A stretch of 64,000 nt of DNA from Dehalococcoidia bacterium (lineage in GTDB: Bacteria; Chloroflexota; Dehalococcoidia; DSTF01; JACRBR01): NCBI GenBank assembly GCA_021731085.1, contig JAKFYB010000006.1:17083-81082 (forward strand). Reading direction: 5' to 3'. A program made the position numbers and the translations under genes. Positions 1-10,517 of this stretch are shown here, in pieces. Numbering within the stretch: position 1 is the first letter of the stretch; every line of letters starts with the position of its first letter. Below the pieces are notes generated by a model. It saw nothing but the letters and a program-made list of their open reading frames with translations. It did no database searches and had not been told where the DNA came from.

Positions 1-2
1 AT

Positions 3-437
3 CTGTCGCACGAAGATGGCCGCACTTGGTACCGGTACCGTGGCAAGGGAGGGAAGACCGGGAAGCGCGAACTGCCCCAGCCGGCATACGCGGCGATCGT
101 GGCCGCACTGGCGGCGTTCGGGCACGACATAGCCACCCTGCGGCCTGACGCGCCGCTGTGGCCCGCGACGGGCCGAACGGGCGCGCTCACGTCGGGCACG
201 TTCTACGCGAACCTACAGCGCTACCTGCGCAGCGCTGGTCTCCCCGCGGCAGGCGTCCACATCTTCCGGCACTCAGCGGCGAAGCTCAGGCGCGATGCCG
301 GCGAGAGCATCGAGGACGTCAGCCGCTTCCTCGACCATTCGTCGCTGGCTGTCACGACGACGTACCTGCGCCGGTTGGAGGGGCAGGAGGACAAGTCGTG
401 GGCGAAGGTGGCCGAGGCGATAGGATTGCCTGCTTGA
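3..437 (+). CDS. Tyrosine recombinase (phage-type integrase), C-terminal part, cut by window edge
   Basis: The reading frame is open from the left edge, so only the last 144 residues are visible. They hold the second half of a tyrosine recombinase catalytic domain: a basic beta-hairpin region (RYRGKGGKTGKRELP) that would carry the catalytic lysine, the HxxR box (HIFRHSAAKLRRDAG), and the LDHSS..TTTYLR segment with the second histidine and the nucleophilic tyrosine. Such enzymes cut and rejoin DNA at attachment sites. The gene sits at the left of an island that ends at ssrA, a classic tyrosine-integrase target. The N-terminal core-binding domain and first catalytic arginine lie outside the window, so intactness is unknown. 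Confidence 0.88.
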   Translation: MSHEDGRTWYRYRGKGGKTGKRELPQPAYAAIVAALAAFGHDIATLRPDAPLWPATGRTGALTSGTFYANLQRYLRSAGLPAAGVHIFRHSAAKLRRDAGESIEDVSRFLDHSSLAVTTTYLRRLEGQEDKSWAKVAEAIGLPA

Positions 438-498
438 CAGAACGTCATAGCACGGGCGTTCTAGTACGGATACACTAGCAATCCTCTCAAAGGATTGC
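434..498 (+). promoter_or_regulatory. Possible promoter -35 box and RBS-sequestering hairpin ahead of the QueC cassette
   Basis: A perfect TTGACA lies at 434-439, overlapping the integrase stop codon; no strong -10 box is visible at the right spacing. Downstream, GCAATCC (478-484) and GGATTGC (492-498) form a perfect 7-bp inverted repeat with a 7-nt loop. The likely ribosome binding site (AAGGA, 490-494) of the gene starting at 503 lies in the loop and 3' arm, so the hairpin could limit translation. A weaker inverted repeat, CTAGT/ACTAG, spans about 461-478. Regulatory function is inference. Confidence 0.35.
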
Positions 499-502
499 GT
501 CG

Positions 503-1285
503 ATGGGACATCTCCGAGTCGGGCGACTTCCCAAGTTCCTCCGCTGGCGCGAGGTCGTCGCGCTCCTCGATGATCCTCAATCAACGCCACAACAGATCGC
601 GGATGCAATTGCTATCGCGGCCGACCGTCGCCTTCGGGGATTGGGTGATGCGCCATCCGTTGGGTATCCCGTCTGGTTGCTCGCGCACCTCACGAACGCC
701 GCGCGTGGGGACGAGTTCGTTGAGGAACTCCAGCGCCTAGAGCCGGAACTGACACAAGACTCGTCATCACTCGCCGTCGTATCGGGCCTGACATCTCATG
801 TTCGTGATGAGCTCACTGCATGGCCTGACCGTGATCACTTTAGTGAGATCAGCATTCAGGCGTTTCGTGAAGCATTGACGCGTACGGTCGGTCGCGAGGG
901 TGCGAGCCTCTTCGACGGGAATGCCGCCGACGTAGAACGCGCCTTTCGCAAGTTTGCTACTCGGGCTGGTTTTGCCGAACTCGCGCGCCGATATTTCTCG
1001 TCATTCCTGGAACGCACGCTGCGCGCATTTGTGGATCGTGAACTGGCCGCACACATCGGACCAGCGCGCCGCTTGGAGTCCTTCGAAGCCACCGACGAGT
1101 TTCGTTCCGCGCTCTCGCATCATGTCTGGCAGAGCTCGTTCATCGTTGAGGAGTTCGCCGGCGACTGGTACTCCAAGCACAACTACCAGTCAGGTGGGGA
1201 TATCTCCGCTGATGAAGCGCAGCGGTTTGTTGCGGTCGCTCTCCGCAAACTTCGGTCCGAGCTTCGACGCGAGGTCGGACGATGA
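503..1285 (+). CDS. Uncharacterised 260-aa partner of the QueC-like protein (begins MGHLRVGRLP)
   Basis: Soluble, mostly helical protein with no signal peptide, membrane segment or catalytic motif that I recognise. It starts Met-Gly-His-Leu-Arg; Gly2 would be exposed after methionine removal. The C-terminal half (about residues 140-255) is rich in aromatic and charged residues, with a run ending VEEFAGDWYSKHNYQSGG. The ATG follows an AAGGA at 490-494. Its stop overlaps the start of the QueC-like gene by four bases (ATGA), which implies translational coupling and joint function. QueC-like enzymes of Qat and type IV CBASS defence systems act with a partner protein, and I recall N-terminal glycine modification being reported there. 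I infer this protein is the substrate or effector; it does not obviously look like QatB. Confidence 0.7.
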   Translation: MGHLRVGRLPKFLRWREVVALLDDPQSTPQQIADAIAIAADRRLRGLGDAPSVGYPVWLLAHLTNAARGDEFVEELQRLEPELTQDSSSLAVVSGLTSHVRDELTAWPDRDHFSEISIQAFREALTRTVGREGASLFDGNAADVERAFRKFATRAGFAELARRYFSSFLERTLRAFVDRELAAHIGPARRLESFEATDEFRSALSHHVWQSSFIVEEFAGDWYSKHNYQSGGDISADEAQRFVAVALRKLRSELRREVGR

Positions 1286-3036
1286 AGGAATTCCTGATTC
1301 GCTGCGATCGCGCGCTCGTCTCTCCCAAGACGTTGAAGCAGTTTGGGTCCAACGTTCGAGAGATCAGCCATCGTGGCGAATCTCCACAGCTCAACATCAG
1401 CGTTCGCACTCCAGTGGTGGGGTTCGACAACATCTCAGGACGAGCCGCCGACCTTGTGCTCATTGCAGCATACGCCTTCGCCGCCGATCAAGAAGTCAGC
1501 CGGGGCGGAGACGCCGACGTCTATGGTTCGCGATGGTCGCGATCCTTCCGGATGGCGTTGCCCGTTGCAGATGCCGACTTCTGGAATCAGCCAGGCGTCA
1601 ACACTGCGCTTTGTTCAGTGCTTCAATTCGCTTCGGACGACCAGTGGTCGTTTGACTTCCTCGACGGAAGAAAGCAGACGGACCACGGCCCACTGCATCT
1701 TCAACTTGACCCAACCCAGACTCTCGGCTCTCCGGACCTCATTGCACTGATGTCCGGAGGCCTCGACAGCCTCGGTTCCGTCATCGAGCAGGTCACCAAG
1801 TTTGGTCGAAGGCCGGCGATCGTTGGGCACTCGCAGAACTTCCACATCGAGAAGCGTCAGGCATCGCTTTGCCGAGAGTTGAGGCGCCGCATACCCGACG
1901 TCCCCTTTCCTGTCGTAAGCGCCGCGGTTCATCGGTGGAAGTCAGATGCACCAGAGACCACACAGCGTACGCGGTCGTTCTTGTATGCGTGCCTTGCGGT
2001 GGCGGTCGGCGCATCGCTACAGATCGACGACATCCATCTCGCCGACAACGGGCCCGTCAGCGTGAATCTACCGATCAGTGACCAGATCCTTGGTGCGATG
2101 GCGACGCGGTCTACTCATCCTCGTTTCTTACGCCTGCTCAACGCGCTGCTCGAACTCACGTTCCCGAAAGGCCCGCGTGTCTCAAACCCGGTGCTCCATC
2201 GAACGCGCACCAGCGTGCTCGGGCTGATCGCCGATGCCGGACTTGCCGAATTACTGCCTCTGACGAACTCCTGCGCCCACCAGCGCAACCGTACACGAGC
2301 ACAGCCGTACTGCGGCCTGTGCTCGCAGTGCATCGACCGACGCTTCGCTGTACTTGCTGCAGGTCTTGAGGAATTCGACCCGCCGGAGCGGTACGAAAAG
2401 GATGTGTTCATAGATCCGTTGATAGCCACGAACCATCGCACGCTAGCTCTCGGTTTTTATCAGACGGCGCTCCGCATACGCGCCCTTTCTGATGACGAGA
2501 TGTGGAACGCCTTTCCCCTCGCAGAGTTAATTGATCCGAGGGGGCTAGACCAACGCGCCGAAGCGAACCTGCTGACGGAGATGTTACGCAGTCAGTCCAC
2601 CGCCATTCTCGAAGCCATGGAACGCGTGATTCAGGGTCGCGCTTTGGATCTAACCATGAGTGGATTGAGTCCCGACTGCTTGGTCGCGCTCGTCGCCTCC
2701 CAAGCGAATATCGGAGCCAGAGACCAGGCCAGACGCCCAGCTGGCTCATTCCTGCACTCGGCCGACTATCGTTCGATTACGTTTGGCCAGAGCCAGTACG
2801 CACTCAGAGAAGGTCCAGCCCTGGCCGTGTCCCTACTCCATGCGGCTGCAAACAACGGAACGCCAGATGTGCCATGGCGCCAGTTACAGGCTCTCCTAAA
2901 CGAACAGGAATTTGGAGCAAGGAGCATGGGTGAACTCTTCCGATCCGTGCCGGACTGGAAGACGCTGGTCGGCCAACGTAGTCGCGGAAGCTATCGACTG
3001 AACTTCCCAGAATCGGCTGCGGGCGAATTGCGCTGA
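1282..3036 (+). CDS. QueC-like PP-loop ATPase with zinc site, probable antiphage defence enzyme
   Basis: The central domain (about residues 150-360) is QueC-like: the PP-loop ATP-pyrophosphatase motif SGGLDS at 158-163, and a four-cysteine zinc site at Cys331, Cys344, Cys347 and Cys350 (QPYCGLCSQCIDRR). QueC makes 7-cyano-7-deazaguanine from carboxy-deazaguanine, ammonia and ATP. This protein has 584 residues against roughly 220-240 for housekeeping QueC, with about 150 extra residues before the PP-loop and about 230 after the zinc site. No queD, queE, queF or folE lies nearby. It forms a translationally coupled pair with the upstream gene between two recombinases. This points to the QueC-like enzymes of defence systems (QatC, type IV CBASS Cap9) rather than queuosine synthesis. 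Substrate and target are inferred. Confidence 0.8.
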   Translation: MKEFLIRCDRALVSPKTLKQFGSNVREISHRGESPQLNISVRTPVVGFDNISGRAADLVLIAAYAFAADQEVSRGGDADVYGSRWSRSFRMALPVADADFWNQPGVNTALCSVLQFASDDQWSFDFLDGRKQTDHGPLHLQLDPTQTLGSPDLIALMSGGLDSLGSVIEQVTKFGRRPAIVGHSQNFHIEKRQASLCRELRRRIPDVPFPVVSAAVHRWKSDAPETTQRTRSFLYACLAVAVGASLQIDDIHLADNGPVSVNLPISDQILGAMATRSTHPRFLRLLNALLELTFPKGPRVSNPVLHRTRTSVLGLIADAGLAELLPLTNSCAHQRNRTRAQPYCGLCSQCIDRRFAVLAAGLEEFDPPERYEKDVFIDPLIATNHRTLALGFYQTALRIRALSDDEMWNAFPLAELIDPRGLDQRAEANLLTEMLRSQSTAILEAMERVIQGRALDLTMSGLSPDCLVALVASQANIGARDQARRPAGSFLHSADYRSITFGQSQYALREGPALAVSLLHAAANNGTPDVPWRQLQALLNEQEFGARSMGELFRSVPDWKTLVGQRSRGSYRLNFPESAAGELR

Positions 3037-3089
3037 TCTTGCGTGCTCATTGCGCGCAACGCCCGCCTCGCTCGCTCTATCGTGCATTC

Positions 3090-3239
3090 GTGAGCGTAAA
3101 GCAACGACTTGATGTTCCAGCCAACTCTGAGCGTACATGTGACGCCGGCCAGCCTCGTCCCGAGGCGGTCGAACATCTGTGCCAGGAGTGGGCGGCGGTC
3201 GTCCGCGCGATCGTGCTGCGACGGGAGCAGGCCAAGTGA
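3090..3239 (+). CDS. Possible small ORF (49 aa) just upstream of the serine recombinase
   Basis: A GTG-started frame encodes a short helical peptide ending EWAAVVRAIVLRREQAK and stops five bases before the recombinase ATG. A TTG start at 3039 would lengthen it by 17 residues. Its position and lack of overlap with the recombinase are compatible with a small accessory protein or a leader peptide, but there is no recognisable domain and the start is uncertain. Confidence 0.35.
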   Translation: MSVKQRLDVPANSERTCDAGQPRPEAVEHLCQEWAAVVRAIVLRREQAK

Positions 3240-3244
3240 GGAAA

Positions 3245-4777
3245 ATGAAGGGCAGGAAGGTACTCGGCTATATCCGTGTCTCGGACGAGAGTCAGGTCGA
3301 CGGACACTCACTCGATGCGCAACGTGCGGAGATCCAGCGCTGGTGCGAACGAAATGACTACGAGTTGGTCGGCGTCTACGCCGATGAAGGTGTGAGCGCT
3401 TACACCGACAAGCTGAGCAAGCGTCCGGAGTTCGCACGCCTGCTGACGGACGCTGAACGTGGCATCGGCGACGTCGTGGTCGTCCACACCCTGGATCGTT
3501 GGGCGCGCAACTCGGCCCTTCAAGCGGAATCGCTGAGGCGGCTCGGCGAGGCTCACGTCGGCTTTGCGTCTATCTCCGAGAACATCGACTTCACGACACC
3601 CGCCGGCAAGATGATCCTGACGACGCTTGGCGCTGCGCAGGAATTCTTCTCGGCACAGACGGGCGTCCACGTGCGCAAGAGTCATCGGCAGAAAGCCTCC
3701 ACAGGTCTTCCAGTTGGACCCGTGCCGTTTGGCTATCGGAAAGGGTCTGAAGGAATCCCGGTGAAGGAGCCTCGTGAGGCGGCCGCCGTGTGTACATGCT
3801 TTCAGAAGGCGCTCGCCCGGGAGTCGCGCGGCTCCATTGCTGCATGGCTGAACAGCGAGGGCTTTCGCACGCGCAAGGAGAGCAGGTTCACCGCCCACGC
3901 CGTAAAAGACATGCTTGGATGCCGGTTTTATCTTGGCGTGGTTCGATGCCGGGACGATGAATTTGCAGCCAAGCATGAGGCCTTGATTGACTCGGAGACT
4001 TTCGACCAACTCCAGATTCTAAAGCGACATAACGGAGCACGCCGGTTGAACCTGCCCGCTGGCGTGCTGCAGGGCAGGGTAGGGTGCATCCGTTGCGGCA
4101 GGCCGCTTCATTCAGACCGCCAGCATCGCCAGGGCGCCCCCATGTACCGCGAGCGCCATGCCGGCGACTGTGACACCAACAACCATGCCTGCATGGCCGA
4201 CGGGGTCGACGCGCAGGTGGGCGAGATCATTAGCGCGCTCACGATTCCCGCGGGGTGGGCCGAACGCATAGCCCATCTCGCTTCGAGGGGTGCCTCGAAG
4301 AGCGTCGACGCGACGAAGCTGAGCGCGAAGCGCGAGCGGATCAAGGAGTCTTACTATGAAGGAGAGATCTCGAAGACCGAGAAGGTCGCGCGCCTCCAAG
4401 AAGTTGATCAGCAGGTGCGCGAAGCTCAACCAGTGAACTGCGTGCGCGCCAGAGATGTGATCGCCCTTCTCGGTGACCTGTCCTCCACGTGGCGTGTAGC
4501 GACGAATGATGAACGGACACGGCTGGTGGCTCCGCTGATTGAGCGCGCTTTCATCGACGTTGAAACGCGCCGTCTGGCAGGGATCGTTCCAGCGCCGGGA
4601 TTCGACTGGCTGCTGCGCGAGGTGCTGGATCAACAAGGCCGATCCGCATGCATGTTGCTCCCCGCGGAAGCTGCGAATCAGCCCAATTGGTGGACTTGGT
4701 GGAGACGGGGGAGAGTCGAACTCCCCGTCCAGGCAATAGGCGCCCTGAGTCTGCTACAGGCTTATCCCGACGGTTAG
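3245..4777 (+). CDS. Large serine recombinase (site-specific integrase)
   Basis: This 510-residue protein opens with the resolvase catalytic domain (GYIRVSDESQ, catalytic Ser13; then LDRWARNS and the AAGKMILTTLGAAQEFF-type segment), followed by the recombinase domain and a zinc-ribbon domain (Cys281-x2-Cys284, with further Cys/His to about residue 312), then a coiled-coil-like stretch around 360-400. The ATG at 3245 is chosen because it follows GAGGAAA and starts the conserved fold; an upstream ATG at 3179 adds residues unlike the family. The last 27 codons lie on the strand opposite the 3' end of ssrA, so the C-terminal tail (WWTWWRRGRVELP) is encoded by antisense tmRNA sequence. This marks the junction between island and chromosome. 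Confidence 0.93.
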   Translation: MKGRKVLGYIRVSDESQVDGHSLDAQRAEIQRWCERNDYELVGVYADEGVSAYTDKLSKRPEFARLLTDAERGIGDVVVVHTLDRWARNSALQAESLRRLGEAHVGFASISENIDFTTPAGKMILTTLGAAQEFFSAQTGVHVRKSHRQKASTGLPVGPVPFGYRKGSEGIPVKEPREAAAVCTCFQKALARESRGSIAAWLNSEGFRTRKESRFTAHAVKDMLGCRFYLGVVRCRDDEFAAKHEALIDSETFDQLQILKRHNGARRLNLPAGVLQGRVGCIRCGRPLHSDRQHRQGAPMYRERHAGDCDTNNHACMADGVDAQVGEIISALTIPAGWAERIAHLASRGASKSVDATKLSAKRERIKESYYEGEISKTEKVARLQEVDQQVREAQPVNCVRARDVIALLGDLSSTWRVATNDERTRLVAPLIERAFIDVETRRLAGIVPAPGFDWLLREVLDQQGRSACMLLPAEAANQPNWWTWWRRGRVELPVQAIGALSLLQAYPDG

Positions 4778-5049
4778 GTCTCGCTCCGTACGTCCGCCGC
4801 GGGCCCGTGCGTACGTTGCCAGCCAGTGTTCTTGAGCACCCGTTACCGGCATCGCGGGTGCAGCACCCCGGCTGTTCGTCGCTCATTCCCGGCCCGCCAG
4901 GGTGAGGCCGGGATGAACGTCACTGTTTTTTAGGCAGCGAGGGCGAGTTGTCGTTCGCCATGTAGGTTTTGGCCACGTATTAAGGAGGTAGCAGCCATCC
5001 TCCGCCTGCAACTCAGATCCGTCGATCCCTGTCGAGCCCCTTCGTCCCC
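4697..5049 (-). ncRNA. ssrA: tmRNA (SsrA), tag peptide GERQLALAA
   Basis: On the minus strand the RNA begins GGGGACGAAGGGGCTCGACAG and ends GGACGGGGAGTTCGACTC...CGTCTCCACCA. The 5' GGGGACG pairs with 3' CGTCTCC (one G-U), giving the tRNA-like acceptor stem, with a T arm and an encoded CCA. The tag frame (4959 down to 4930) reads Gly-Glu-Arg-Gln-Leu-Ala-Leu-Ala-Ala-stop, ending in the LAA degradation signal. tmRNA rescues stalled ribosomes with SmpB, whose gene is immediately upstream on the same strand. The 3' end coincides with the end of a serine recombinase gene, so ssrA is the integration site of the island to its left. A REP palindrome lies just upstream. Confidence 0.95.
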
Positions 5050-9341: not shown

Positions 9342-10517
9342 ATGGCGTTTCTCGCCTGGCCGGCTGCATCTCTACGATTCGACCTCTGGCAAAGTACGGT
9401 TGTGATCGAGACCTTCTTTTACGGCCTGAGCATTGTCTCGGCCGCGTTCCTTCTCACGTGGACCGCTGAGGCGGCAGAACGCGACGTGCCGCGTACATTG
9501 GCGCTTGCCGGCCTTGCGCTGATCGCGGTGCTGCCGGAATACGCCGTCGACATGCTCTTCGCTTGGAAGGCGGGGCAGGATCCATCGTACGCGTCGTACG
9601 CCACCGCCAACATGACGGGCGGGAACCGGCTGCTCGTCGGTTTGGGTTGGACGATGGTCGTGGCGATCTTCGCATTCAGGACGAAGGAGAGCGTCCTGAA
9701 GCTGGCGAGTGTGCATCGCAACGAAGTCGGGATTCTCGGGATCGCGACGATCTACTCCTTCATCATTCCATTTCGTGGCGGAATCACGTTGTTCGATGCG
9801 GCATTTCTTATCAGCCTCTTCGCCGTCTATGTCTATCTAGCGTCGCGTGGAGAGGTGGAGGAGGAGTCGTCGCTCGTCGGGCCGGCAGAGCACATCGCCA
9901 ACCTGCCCATGGTGCAACGACGTATCGTTCTGATTTTGATGTTCGTGTACGCAGGCCTTGCAATCCTGGTTGCAGCCGAATCGTTCGCAGAAGGCCTCAT
10001 CGAGAGCGGCACGGATCTAGGGATCGACGAGTATCAACTTGTTCAGTGGGTCGCGCCGCTCGCGTCAGAATTCCCAGAGTTTCTCGTCGCCGGGTTGCTC
10101 GCGTGGCGCATGCGCGCTGATGCGGCGCTCGGAGCGTTGGTGTCGTCCAAGGTGAACCAGTGGACGCTGCTGATCGGTACTCTACCGATTGCGTTCGCGA
10201 TTTCCAGCCGCAGCCTCAATCCACTTCCTACGGATGGTCGTCAGACAGAGGAGGTACTGCTGACGGCAGCGCAGTCCTTGTTGGCGGTCGTGCTGCTCAT
10301 CAACCTCCGCATGTCTACGCTCGAGGGCGGTATCCTGGCGGTTCTCTTCTTCGCGCAGTTTCTCACCCCACACTCGATTGTGTCGCGGGATGCATTCTCC
10401 GTCATGTATGTCGCGCTCGCTGCGATCTTCGGTGTACGTCAACTGATGGAGATGCGGCCGTACTTCCCGGGGCGATACCGTATGGTGGCGGCTCCGCTTG
10501 GACGACCGCCTCCGTAG
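9342..10517 (+). CDS. Cation exchanger of the Ca2+/cation antiporter superfamily (probable Mn2+ or Ca2+ efflux)
   Basis: An integral membrane protein with about ten to eleven hydrophobic segments. The two inverted alpha repeats carry the acidic pockets typical of the superfamily: ALIAVLPEYAVDMLFAWKAG near residue 60 and APLASEFPEFLVAGLLAW near residue 240. It would exchange divalent cations for protons or sodium across the inner membrane, and the Mn2+-type riboswitch upstream suggests manganese detoxification. The first ATG is 9342, but no ribosome site precedes it; GGAGG at 9295-9299 is six bases ahead of an in-frame CTG at 9306, which would add LDALRKWQWPII. Confidence 0.85.
   Translation: MAFLAWPAASLRFDLWQSTVVIETFFYGLSIVSAAFLLTWTAEAAERDVPRTLALAGLALIAVLPEYAVDMLFAWKAGQDPSYASYATANMTGGNRLLVGLGWTMVVAIFAFRTKESVLKLASVHRNEVGILGIATIYSFIIPFRGGITLFDAAFLISLFAVYVYLASRGEVEEESSLVGPAEHIANLPMVQRRIVLILMFVYAGLAILVAAESFAEGLIESGTDLGIDEYQLVQWVAPLASEFPEFLVAGLLAWRMRADAALGALVSSKVNQWTLLIGTLPIAFAISSRSLNPLPTDGRQTEEVLLTAAQSLLAVVLLINLRMSTLEGGILAVLFFAQFLTPHSIVSRDAFSVMYVALAAIFGVRQLMEMRPYFPGRYRMVAAPLGRPPP

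Follow-up and report, generated by a model that had tools for sequence, protein, structure and literature searches.

A candidate two-gene QatB–QatC module with an exchangeable C-terminal tail on mobile DNA of a Dehalococcoidia bacterium

What does a QueC-like enzyme of more than twice the usual size do between two recombinase genes, in a genome where no TGT and no full QueE could be found? This question is raised by a stretch of 64,000 nucleotides from a Dehalococcoidia bacterium (contig JAKFYB010000006.1, positions 17,083 to 81,082; hereafter the window), in which the gene for a protein of 260 residues (B; 503..1285, + strand, ATG start) overlaps by ATGA the gene for an enzyme of 584 residues (C; 1282..3036, + strand, ATG start). 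A sequence-only reading had proposed that the two form a minimal antiphage system in which C attaches a deazaguanine to the N-terminal glycine of B. Our analysis suggests that they probably constitute a natural two-gene QatB–QatC module on mobile DNA, which would act against phages through acylation of that glycine (Gly2), thereby arming the C-terminal tail of C. The assignment of the pair to the QatB–QatC family is held with high confidence, and an anti-phage function, by homology, is likely.

The core of C is that of a QueC-family enzyme, with a PP-loop SGGLDS (residues 158-163; 1753..1770, + strand) and a four-Cys zinc site (Cys331, 344, 347 and 350; 2272..2331, + strand), both read from the sequence and from conservation among homologs, where the four cysteines are kept in 120, 120, 119 and 119 of 120 C proteins, respectively. 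By profile, and by fold on a predicted model, C is a QatC-like protein with an extra C-terminal tail. The explanation that C is a housekeeping or divergent QueC of the queuosine pathway, with B as a bystander gene, could draw on the public name 7-cyano-7-deazaguanine synthase that several C relatives carry. The QueC model gives C only 12.3 bits against a cut-off of 150.3, though, no TGT or full QueE match was found in the genome, and C is strictly paired with B, so that we consider this explanation practically negligible; for a QatC-type protein that comes with a partner gene, the public name is a misnomer. The canonical QueC cluster has a median length of about 222 residues (PMC13329287), against 584 for C. 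In these respects the sequence-only reading was right, both on the size of C and on its not being a queuosine enzyme, and its coordinates, motif positions and account of the surroundings, with recombinases and ssrA, are all correct.

A tree of 50 hand-picked C cores sets 44 two-gene proteins apart from six short-tailed QatC proteins with a support of 96/99. Four of the eight short-tailed loci of the phylum (L091-L098) are in this tree; L094, L095 and L097 are out because of their minus strand, and L096 because it has no SGGxDS string. Among the six short-tailed rows, Qat partners are seen beside L080, L081 and L098 only. The B–C family is a sister group of QatBC, and not an orphan family. QatBC without QatA and QatD suffices for defence of E. 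coli against phage lambda (Gao, Wassarman and Kranzusch; PMC13279940), and in the same study QatB G2D, QatC PP-loop and T278/T280 mutants fail in defence. Since QatBC alone defends, a natural QatBC-only system is plausible; in the open-licence PMC literature we found no description of one. The idea of a minimal two-gene version holds as far as the missing QatA and QatD are concerned, but the pair is the sister of a system whose lambda defence without these genes is already published (PMC13279940).

How constant is the pair itself? A genome scan yielded 62 B loci and a viral scan 17, and the named records fall in Chloroflexota, Planctomycetota, Pseudomonadota, Acidobacteriota, Omnitrophota, Myxococcota, Zixiibacteriota and other phyla. 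C follows B in 59 of the 62 genome loci and in 14 of the 17 viral ones. A reverse scan of viral sequences with C gave 80 loci, 78 of which have B directly in front, the other two being cut by a contig edge. Pair statistics cover the 153 of 173 loci with B and C on the plus strand, or 86 after removal of near-copies, and in 83 of these 86 C starts at most 60 bp from the B stop. B aligns from residue 1 in 79 of them; of the remaining seven, L051, L108, L121, L128 and L139 run into the end of a contig, L061 opens with MGHIRLG although its frame is interrupted, and L004 is without the motif. The survey of loci found with C left seven on the minus strand unscored (L088, L089, L090, L094, L095, L097 and L099). 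As the two genes are conserved and paired across phyla, the pair is not a chance arrangement, and co-occurrence in other genomes is found from both sides. Two of the minus-strand loci, L088 and L089 (genomes G136 and G079), are two-gene pairs in the phylum of the window, and one of their B proteins starts MGHERVGTLPKTQRW. At L019, L022, L027, L049 and L061 the C or B frame is interrupted or much shortened.

Neither QatA, a KAP ATPase, nor QatD, a TatD nuclease, was detected at any of the 79 B-found loci or in the window by tblastn with two queries each, in flanks of up to 10 kb where available, while both control operons (L080 and L081) were found. No common third gene emerges among 87 nonredundant pairs either, where the largest upstream and downstream neighbour clusters have nine members each; the lack of ATPase and TatD genes noted earlier extends beyond this locus. 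Of 190 candidate neighbouring open reading frames (ORFs), 128 were kept according to their distance and to limits on length and residues, and among these 128 the commonest recognisable genes are recombinases (PF07508 in 10, PF00589 in 9), and homologs of the two recombinases of the window occur in 24 of the 79 loci. We found no named phage record with B; a distant C is present in two Listeria phage records, and one plasmid, of Leptospira noguchii, carries B with a C relative directly behind.

The partner begins MGHLRVGRLPK, and an AGGA located 8 nt ahead of the ATG at 503 fits a ribosome site. This spacing supports the start at 503 and therefore places Gly at residue 2 of B; judged by its sequence, Met-Gly-His is very likely the real start. 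Residues 1-15 (503..547, + strand) form a conserved N-terminal tail of the type MGHxRLGxLPxxxxW, with Gly2 as the predicted acceptor. Where nonredundant B proteins could be aligned from their first residue, Gly2 is kept in 79 of 79, His3 in 78, Pro10 in 73 and Trp15 in 67. Among database B homologs (query included) 65 of 67 have Gly2; of the two exceptions, one seems to start too early and one to be truncated at its start, and P0155 is counted as Gly2 though its annotated start lies inside the motif. Four of these 67 rows (P0155, P0174, P0186 and P0187) were dropped before our alignment A1, and A3 takes 50 of the 120 C homologs. Because the N-terminal pattern was one of the two scan patterns, the Gly2 counts from the genome scan are biased. 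The C-first viral loci are free of this bias, and in these Gly2 is present in 73 of 73, near-copies included. The B protein of the Leptospira plasmid, with an overall identity of 25%, starts MGHERLGILPKTRSW. Residues 1-11 of B have a predicted local distance difference test score below 50 and are thus predicted to be flexible; an N-terminus that is flexible in prediction yet strictly conserved is the pattern expected of a tail docking into an enzyme.

B is predicted to be all-helical, and its predicted model matches QatB by fold well above background; its best folds are QatB, and no CD-NTase is among the matches listed, by a rule that can miss one. The profile match of B to QatB is weak, and because sequence searches and Foldseek were uninformative, the identity of B rests on the second fold comparison together with this profile support. 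The profile search proposed earlier linked C to QatC and gave much less for B. The sequence-only reading had named a queuosine QueC match, a lack of co-occurrence and an unconserved position 2 as findings that would speak against it, and none of the three was found; Gly2 would indeed suit as acceptor.

Which chemistry would the two proteins share? By analogy with QatBC and Cap9, Met1 of B would be removed, exposing Gly2, and the flexible tail would enter the active site of C. There, a small carboxylic acid would be activated by C at the expense of ATP and joined to Gly2 in an ATP-driven acylation. Tagged B may then switch on the tail fused to C, a step suggested solely by the way these tails are exchanged among relatives. 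The outputs would presumably be NAD-cleaving (TIR and SIR2 tails), DNA-cutting (DpnII-like tails) or, in the C protein of the window, those of a winged-helix-like module. The acid in this system may well be other than 7-carboxy-7-deazaguanine (CDG) made by the host.

In Cap9 the acid is CDG (PMC13279940), bound by a Tyr and an Asp. Residues 262-279 of C (2065..2118, + strand) are taken by alignment to be the QatC-type loop, equivalent to N265-H282 of Pa QatC, and the role of this loop is taken from PMC13279940. At the places of the CDG-binding Tyr and Asp, C carries Thr275 and Ser277, where the equivalence of 275/277 to T278/T280 of Pa QatC rests on alignments and on the numbering in PMC13279940. 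In 118 of 120 homologs each of these positions holds a Ser or a Thr, and neither Tyr nor Asp is seen there in any of the 120. A coupled swap of Thr and Ser between the two positions was considered and rejected on the counts (S,S 42; T,T 42; T,S 30; S,T 4; I,S 1; T,V 1).

The host genes point in the same direction. The genome of the window (96.57% complete) has no PF06508 match at E <= 0.001, one partial match to TIGR00364 (23.8 bits), no TGT that we could find, and one partial match to the QueE model (22.9 bits) in a frame of 369 residues, which is probably MoaA. Among 18 genomes of the order of the host, none has TGT and none has QueC over the cut-off, short sub-cut-off matches being present in most and one of 53 bits over the full length in G060; QueE has no match in six and only partial radical-SAM matches (model positions 28-120 of 238) in twelve. 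TGT is over the cut-off in 28 of 60 relatives from the class. The QueE model matches in 10 of 14 control genomes but passes its cut-off in only one, for which reason QueE was judged by where the match starts on the model: matches next to QueC start at positions 2-7 (e.g. in G011, G032, G035 and G042), and other radical-SAM matches at about 20 or later. A search of 400 genomes of the same phylum, probably Chloroflexota, found 13 that carry a QatC-family C, of which three have QueC over the cut-off and two a QueE match from the N-terminus of the model. Ten of the 13 are without both, or eight if the weaker matches in G194 and G198 are counted as possible. G404 (L098; 100% complete), with canonical QatB and QatD beside C, and G445 (L095; 95% complete), with canonical QatA and QatD, are both among these ten, with no QueC over the cut-off and partial QueE matches only, and the single-contig genome G079 has TGT with neither QueC over the cut-off nor a QueE match. 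Hosts in which neither QueC nor a full QueE match is detectable, the Qat carriers G404 and G445 among them, argue against host-made CDG as a universal substrate.

The same module could nevertheless use CDG as its tag, as in Cap9, if cells take up the base from their surroundings by salvage or if the host is no more than a dead-end carrier. Cap9 deazaguanylates in this manner (PMC13279940, PMC11996544), carboxydeazaguanylation has been proposed for QatC (PMC13329287), and QueC is over the cut-off in 33 of the 49 named host genomes, a survey that covers 50 of the 62 loci. These points speak against our view of the acid, and so do three others. Eleven of the 49 genomes have neither QueC nor QueE (absence of the latter being set by our own threshold of 1e-7), and eight of these have TGT, which with completeness not given makes salvage or assembly gaps possible. 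The single pass among the 14 controls limits what a missing QueE can tell. The window's genome, moreover, has one PTPS-family gene (L083:1486-1965, - strand) with a MEPLHGH stretch; the Cys expected of QueD seems to be missing there, so that the gene may belong to pterin and not to queuosine synthesis. Conversely, the replaced Tyr and Asp, together with a host order without TGT, over-cut-off QueC or full QueE, lead us to doubt CDG as the tag, and the same-phylum carriers weigh likewise. We rate a CDG tag as unlikely, though worth keeping in view; host-made CDG is an unlikely substrate in this host, and genomes seem able to carry QatC-type genes without it. Of the deazaguanine first proposed for the N-terminal glycine, the glycine has stood up well and the deazaguanine has become doubtful.

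A host without detectable QueC, TGT or full QueE might also suggest that the trigger comes with the phage, such that a phage making 7-deazaguanine for its own DNA brings the base, and tagging of B reports the infection. Phages lambda, T4 and P1 are not known to make deazaguanine. Canonical Qat acts on all three (PMC13279940), and the CDG-binding residues are gone from C. Although 7-deazaguanine derivatives are found in phage DNA (PMC13329287), we therefore regard a phage-supplied trigger as very improbable.

Where would the effector of such a module reside? The sequence-only reading had left it unnamed. QatC matches to C stop at residue 470-473, and beyond the QatC fold there is a tail of about 110 residues (residues about 474-584; 2701..3033, + strand). 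Relatives bear different tails at about the same place. That of P0031 is a ThsB-like TIR domain (PADLOC 1.3e-47; Pfam TIR_2 7.2e-11, over the cut-off), that of P0083 a ThsA-like SIR2 domain (PADLOC 2.6e-22; Pfam SIR2_2 3.7e-27, over the cut-off), and that of P0026 a DpnII-like nuclease (1.5e-5, slightly below the Pfam cut-off). By phmmer, DpnII-like tails occur in 21 of 193 proteins, a set that includes near-copies and truncated frames, and five of these are in loci with B in front. Another class, read by eye, has about 230 residues with a coiled coil; the remaining tails are smaller or unclassed, and 63 of the 193 proteins fall in no tail class. On a core tree of 43 hand-picked rows the label of the tail has to change 13 times, where 7 changes would be the fewest possible, and the SIR2-tailed form is sister to a nuclease form (support 100/95). 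Antiviral effector domains that are swapped behind a constant core are commonly read as marking an effector slot. Because such domains exchange here behind a constant core, we place the presumed effector in the tail of C, which narrows the earlier statement. In the window, DSSP gives the tail the order H510-524, H532-541, H549-552, E563-567 and E570-573, which in the predicted model resembles a winged helix; profile comparison gave no confirmation.

Toxic-type tails behind a small partner also invite a toxin-antitoxin or stability module, in which B keeps the tail of C inactive, loss of the element frees it, and the N-terminal chemistry is irrelevant. The small-then-large overlapping gene order, the exchangeable tails of toxic type in relatives and the adjoining recombinases would all fit. 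Under such an arrangement, however, the conserved ATP site, zinc site and Gly2 would be needless, and the published defence role of the related QatBC needs both sites (PMC13279940), which makes it improbable.

Several observations weigh against the QatBC-only, tail-arming module that we favour. C scores 179 bits against the NCBIfam QatC cut-off of 280, and all 11 family members scanned fall below that annotation cut-off. B has no sequence-level QatB match in Pfam, NCBIfam, PADLOC or PDB searches, and Foldseek by itself reported nothing at E <= 1e-3. The predicted flexible tail of B runs to about 10 residues, where that of Pa QatB has 63. L004 (about 9941-10060), a nonredundant B relative with a C fragment behind, has no MGHxRLG motif. 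At L056 and L070 no C accompanies B, despite 9.9 and 6.8 kb of downstream sequence, respectively. The TIR and SIR2 forms (P0031, P0039 and P0083) were seen as protein sequences, apart from their DNA. The tail in the window has no Pfam match or known domain, and its winged-helix reading stays unconfirmed, as hhalign of its class against six other tail sets aligned 17-61 columns. The survey for defence islands gave no island sign, no PADLOC family being present in more than two of the 128 neighbouring ORFs. We know of no assay of the two-gene subfamily.

As for the surroundings, a tyrosine recombinase (1..437, + strand) lies ahead of B, its start upstream of the window in a frame of 328 codons from stop to stop. 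Downstream of C follows a large serine recombinase with Resolvase and Recombinase domains (3245..4777, + strand), likely starting at the ATG at 3245, the mechanical ORF running from 3179, and the 3' end of ssrA (transfer-messenger RNA; 4697..5049, - strand) overlaps the recombinase ORF. A search of the 17 kb upstream turned up no second ssrA 3' end, which leaves the far end of the island undefined. A perfect 8-bp inverted repeat with a 5-nt loop, GCAATCCT-ctcaa-AGGATTGC (478..498, + strand), spans the ribosome site of B; in an RNA fold of 440-560, a segment with an overall z of -1.64, it forms part of a stem, and it is possibly an operator or a hairpin masking the ribosome-binding site. Between C and the serine recombinase there is a short ORF of 66 residues (3039-3239, TTG start) that ends shortly ahead of the probable start codon of the latter. 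Some 1-8 kb before the window begins (L085:9430-16463), a 2087-residue frame of Rhs/YD-repeat type followed by one of 250 residues adjoins the tyrosine recombinase; read by eye, the two frames resemble a polymorphic-toxin locus next to the same mobile DNA.

Two papers of 2026 leave open the group that QatC attaches and the executor of defence (PMC13279940, PMC13329287), and the present subfamily offers handles on both. Where the fused tail is a recognisable domain (TIR, SIR2, nuclease), its activity would be an output that can be measured. Found in many phyla and on viral contigs, the pair stays below the QatC annotation cut-off in all 11 members scanned, and members bear the names of queuosine enzymes. 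It is tempting to go further and suppose that QatC-type enzymes modify protein N-termini by something other than deazaguanylation, and that the two-gene branch joins another carboxylic acid to the Gly-His N-terminus of B, arming the fused tail, be it TIR, SIR2, nuclease or winged-helix-like, and so represents a self-contained, effector-swapping class of immunity on integrase-bearing and viral elements; this we offer tentatively, as a possibility we would not bet on.

In comparison with known systems, C differs from queuosine QueC in size, in the CDG residues and in its conserved partner gene, and neither TGT nor QueE was found with it. Type IV CBASS pairs Cap9 with a CD-NTase (PDB 9nto; PMC11996544), whereas the partner here matches QatB. 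Cap9 keeps the Tyr and Asp for CDG, base-recognition residues present in none of the 120 C proteins, and no gene of the TGT family, to which Cap10 belongs, was found in the window's genome. Thoeris is echoed in the two relatives whose tails match the ThsB (P0031) and ThsA (P0083) models; unlike in Thoeris and other TIR or SIR2 effectors, these domains are fused behind a QatC core, and they are absent from the C protein of the window itself. The closest relative is the core of qatABCD (PMC13279940; PDB 9y01/9y02). The B–C pair departs from it in having no detectable QatA or QatD, in an MGH tail of about 10 residues where Qat has MGTS on about 63, in a B that single-sequence search does not recognise and a C below the NCBIfam QatC cut-off, in the separate tree group of its C proteins, and in the extra exchangeable tail of C, about 110 residues here and longer in many relatives. 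What the two have in common is the QatC fold including its N- and C-terminal extensions and the QatB-contact loop, the QatB fold with a flexible Met-Gly N-terminus, the PP-loop, the zinc site, the order of B then C, and the two hydroxyl residues that replace Tyr and Asp (T278/T280 in Pa QatC, 275/277 in C).

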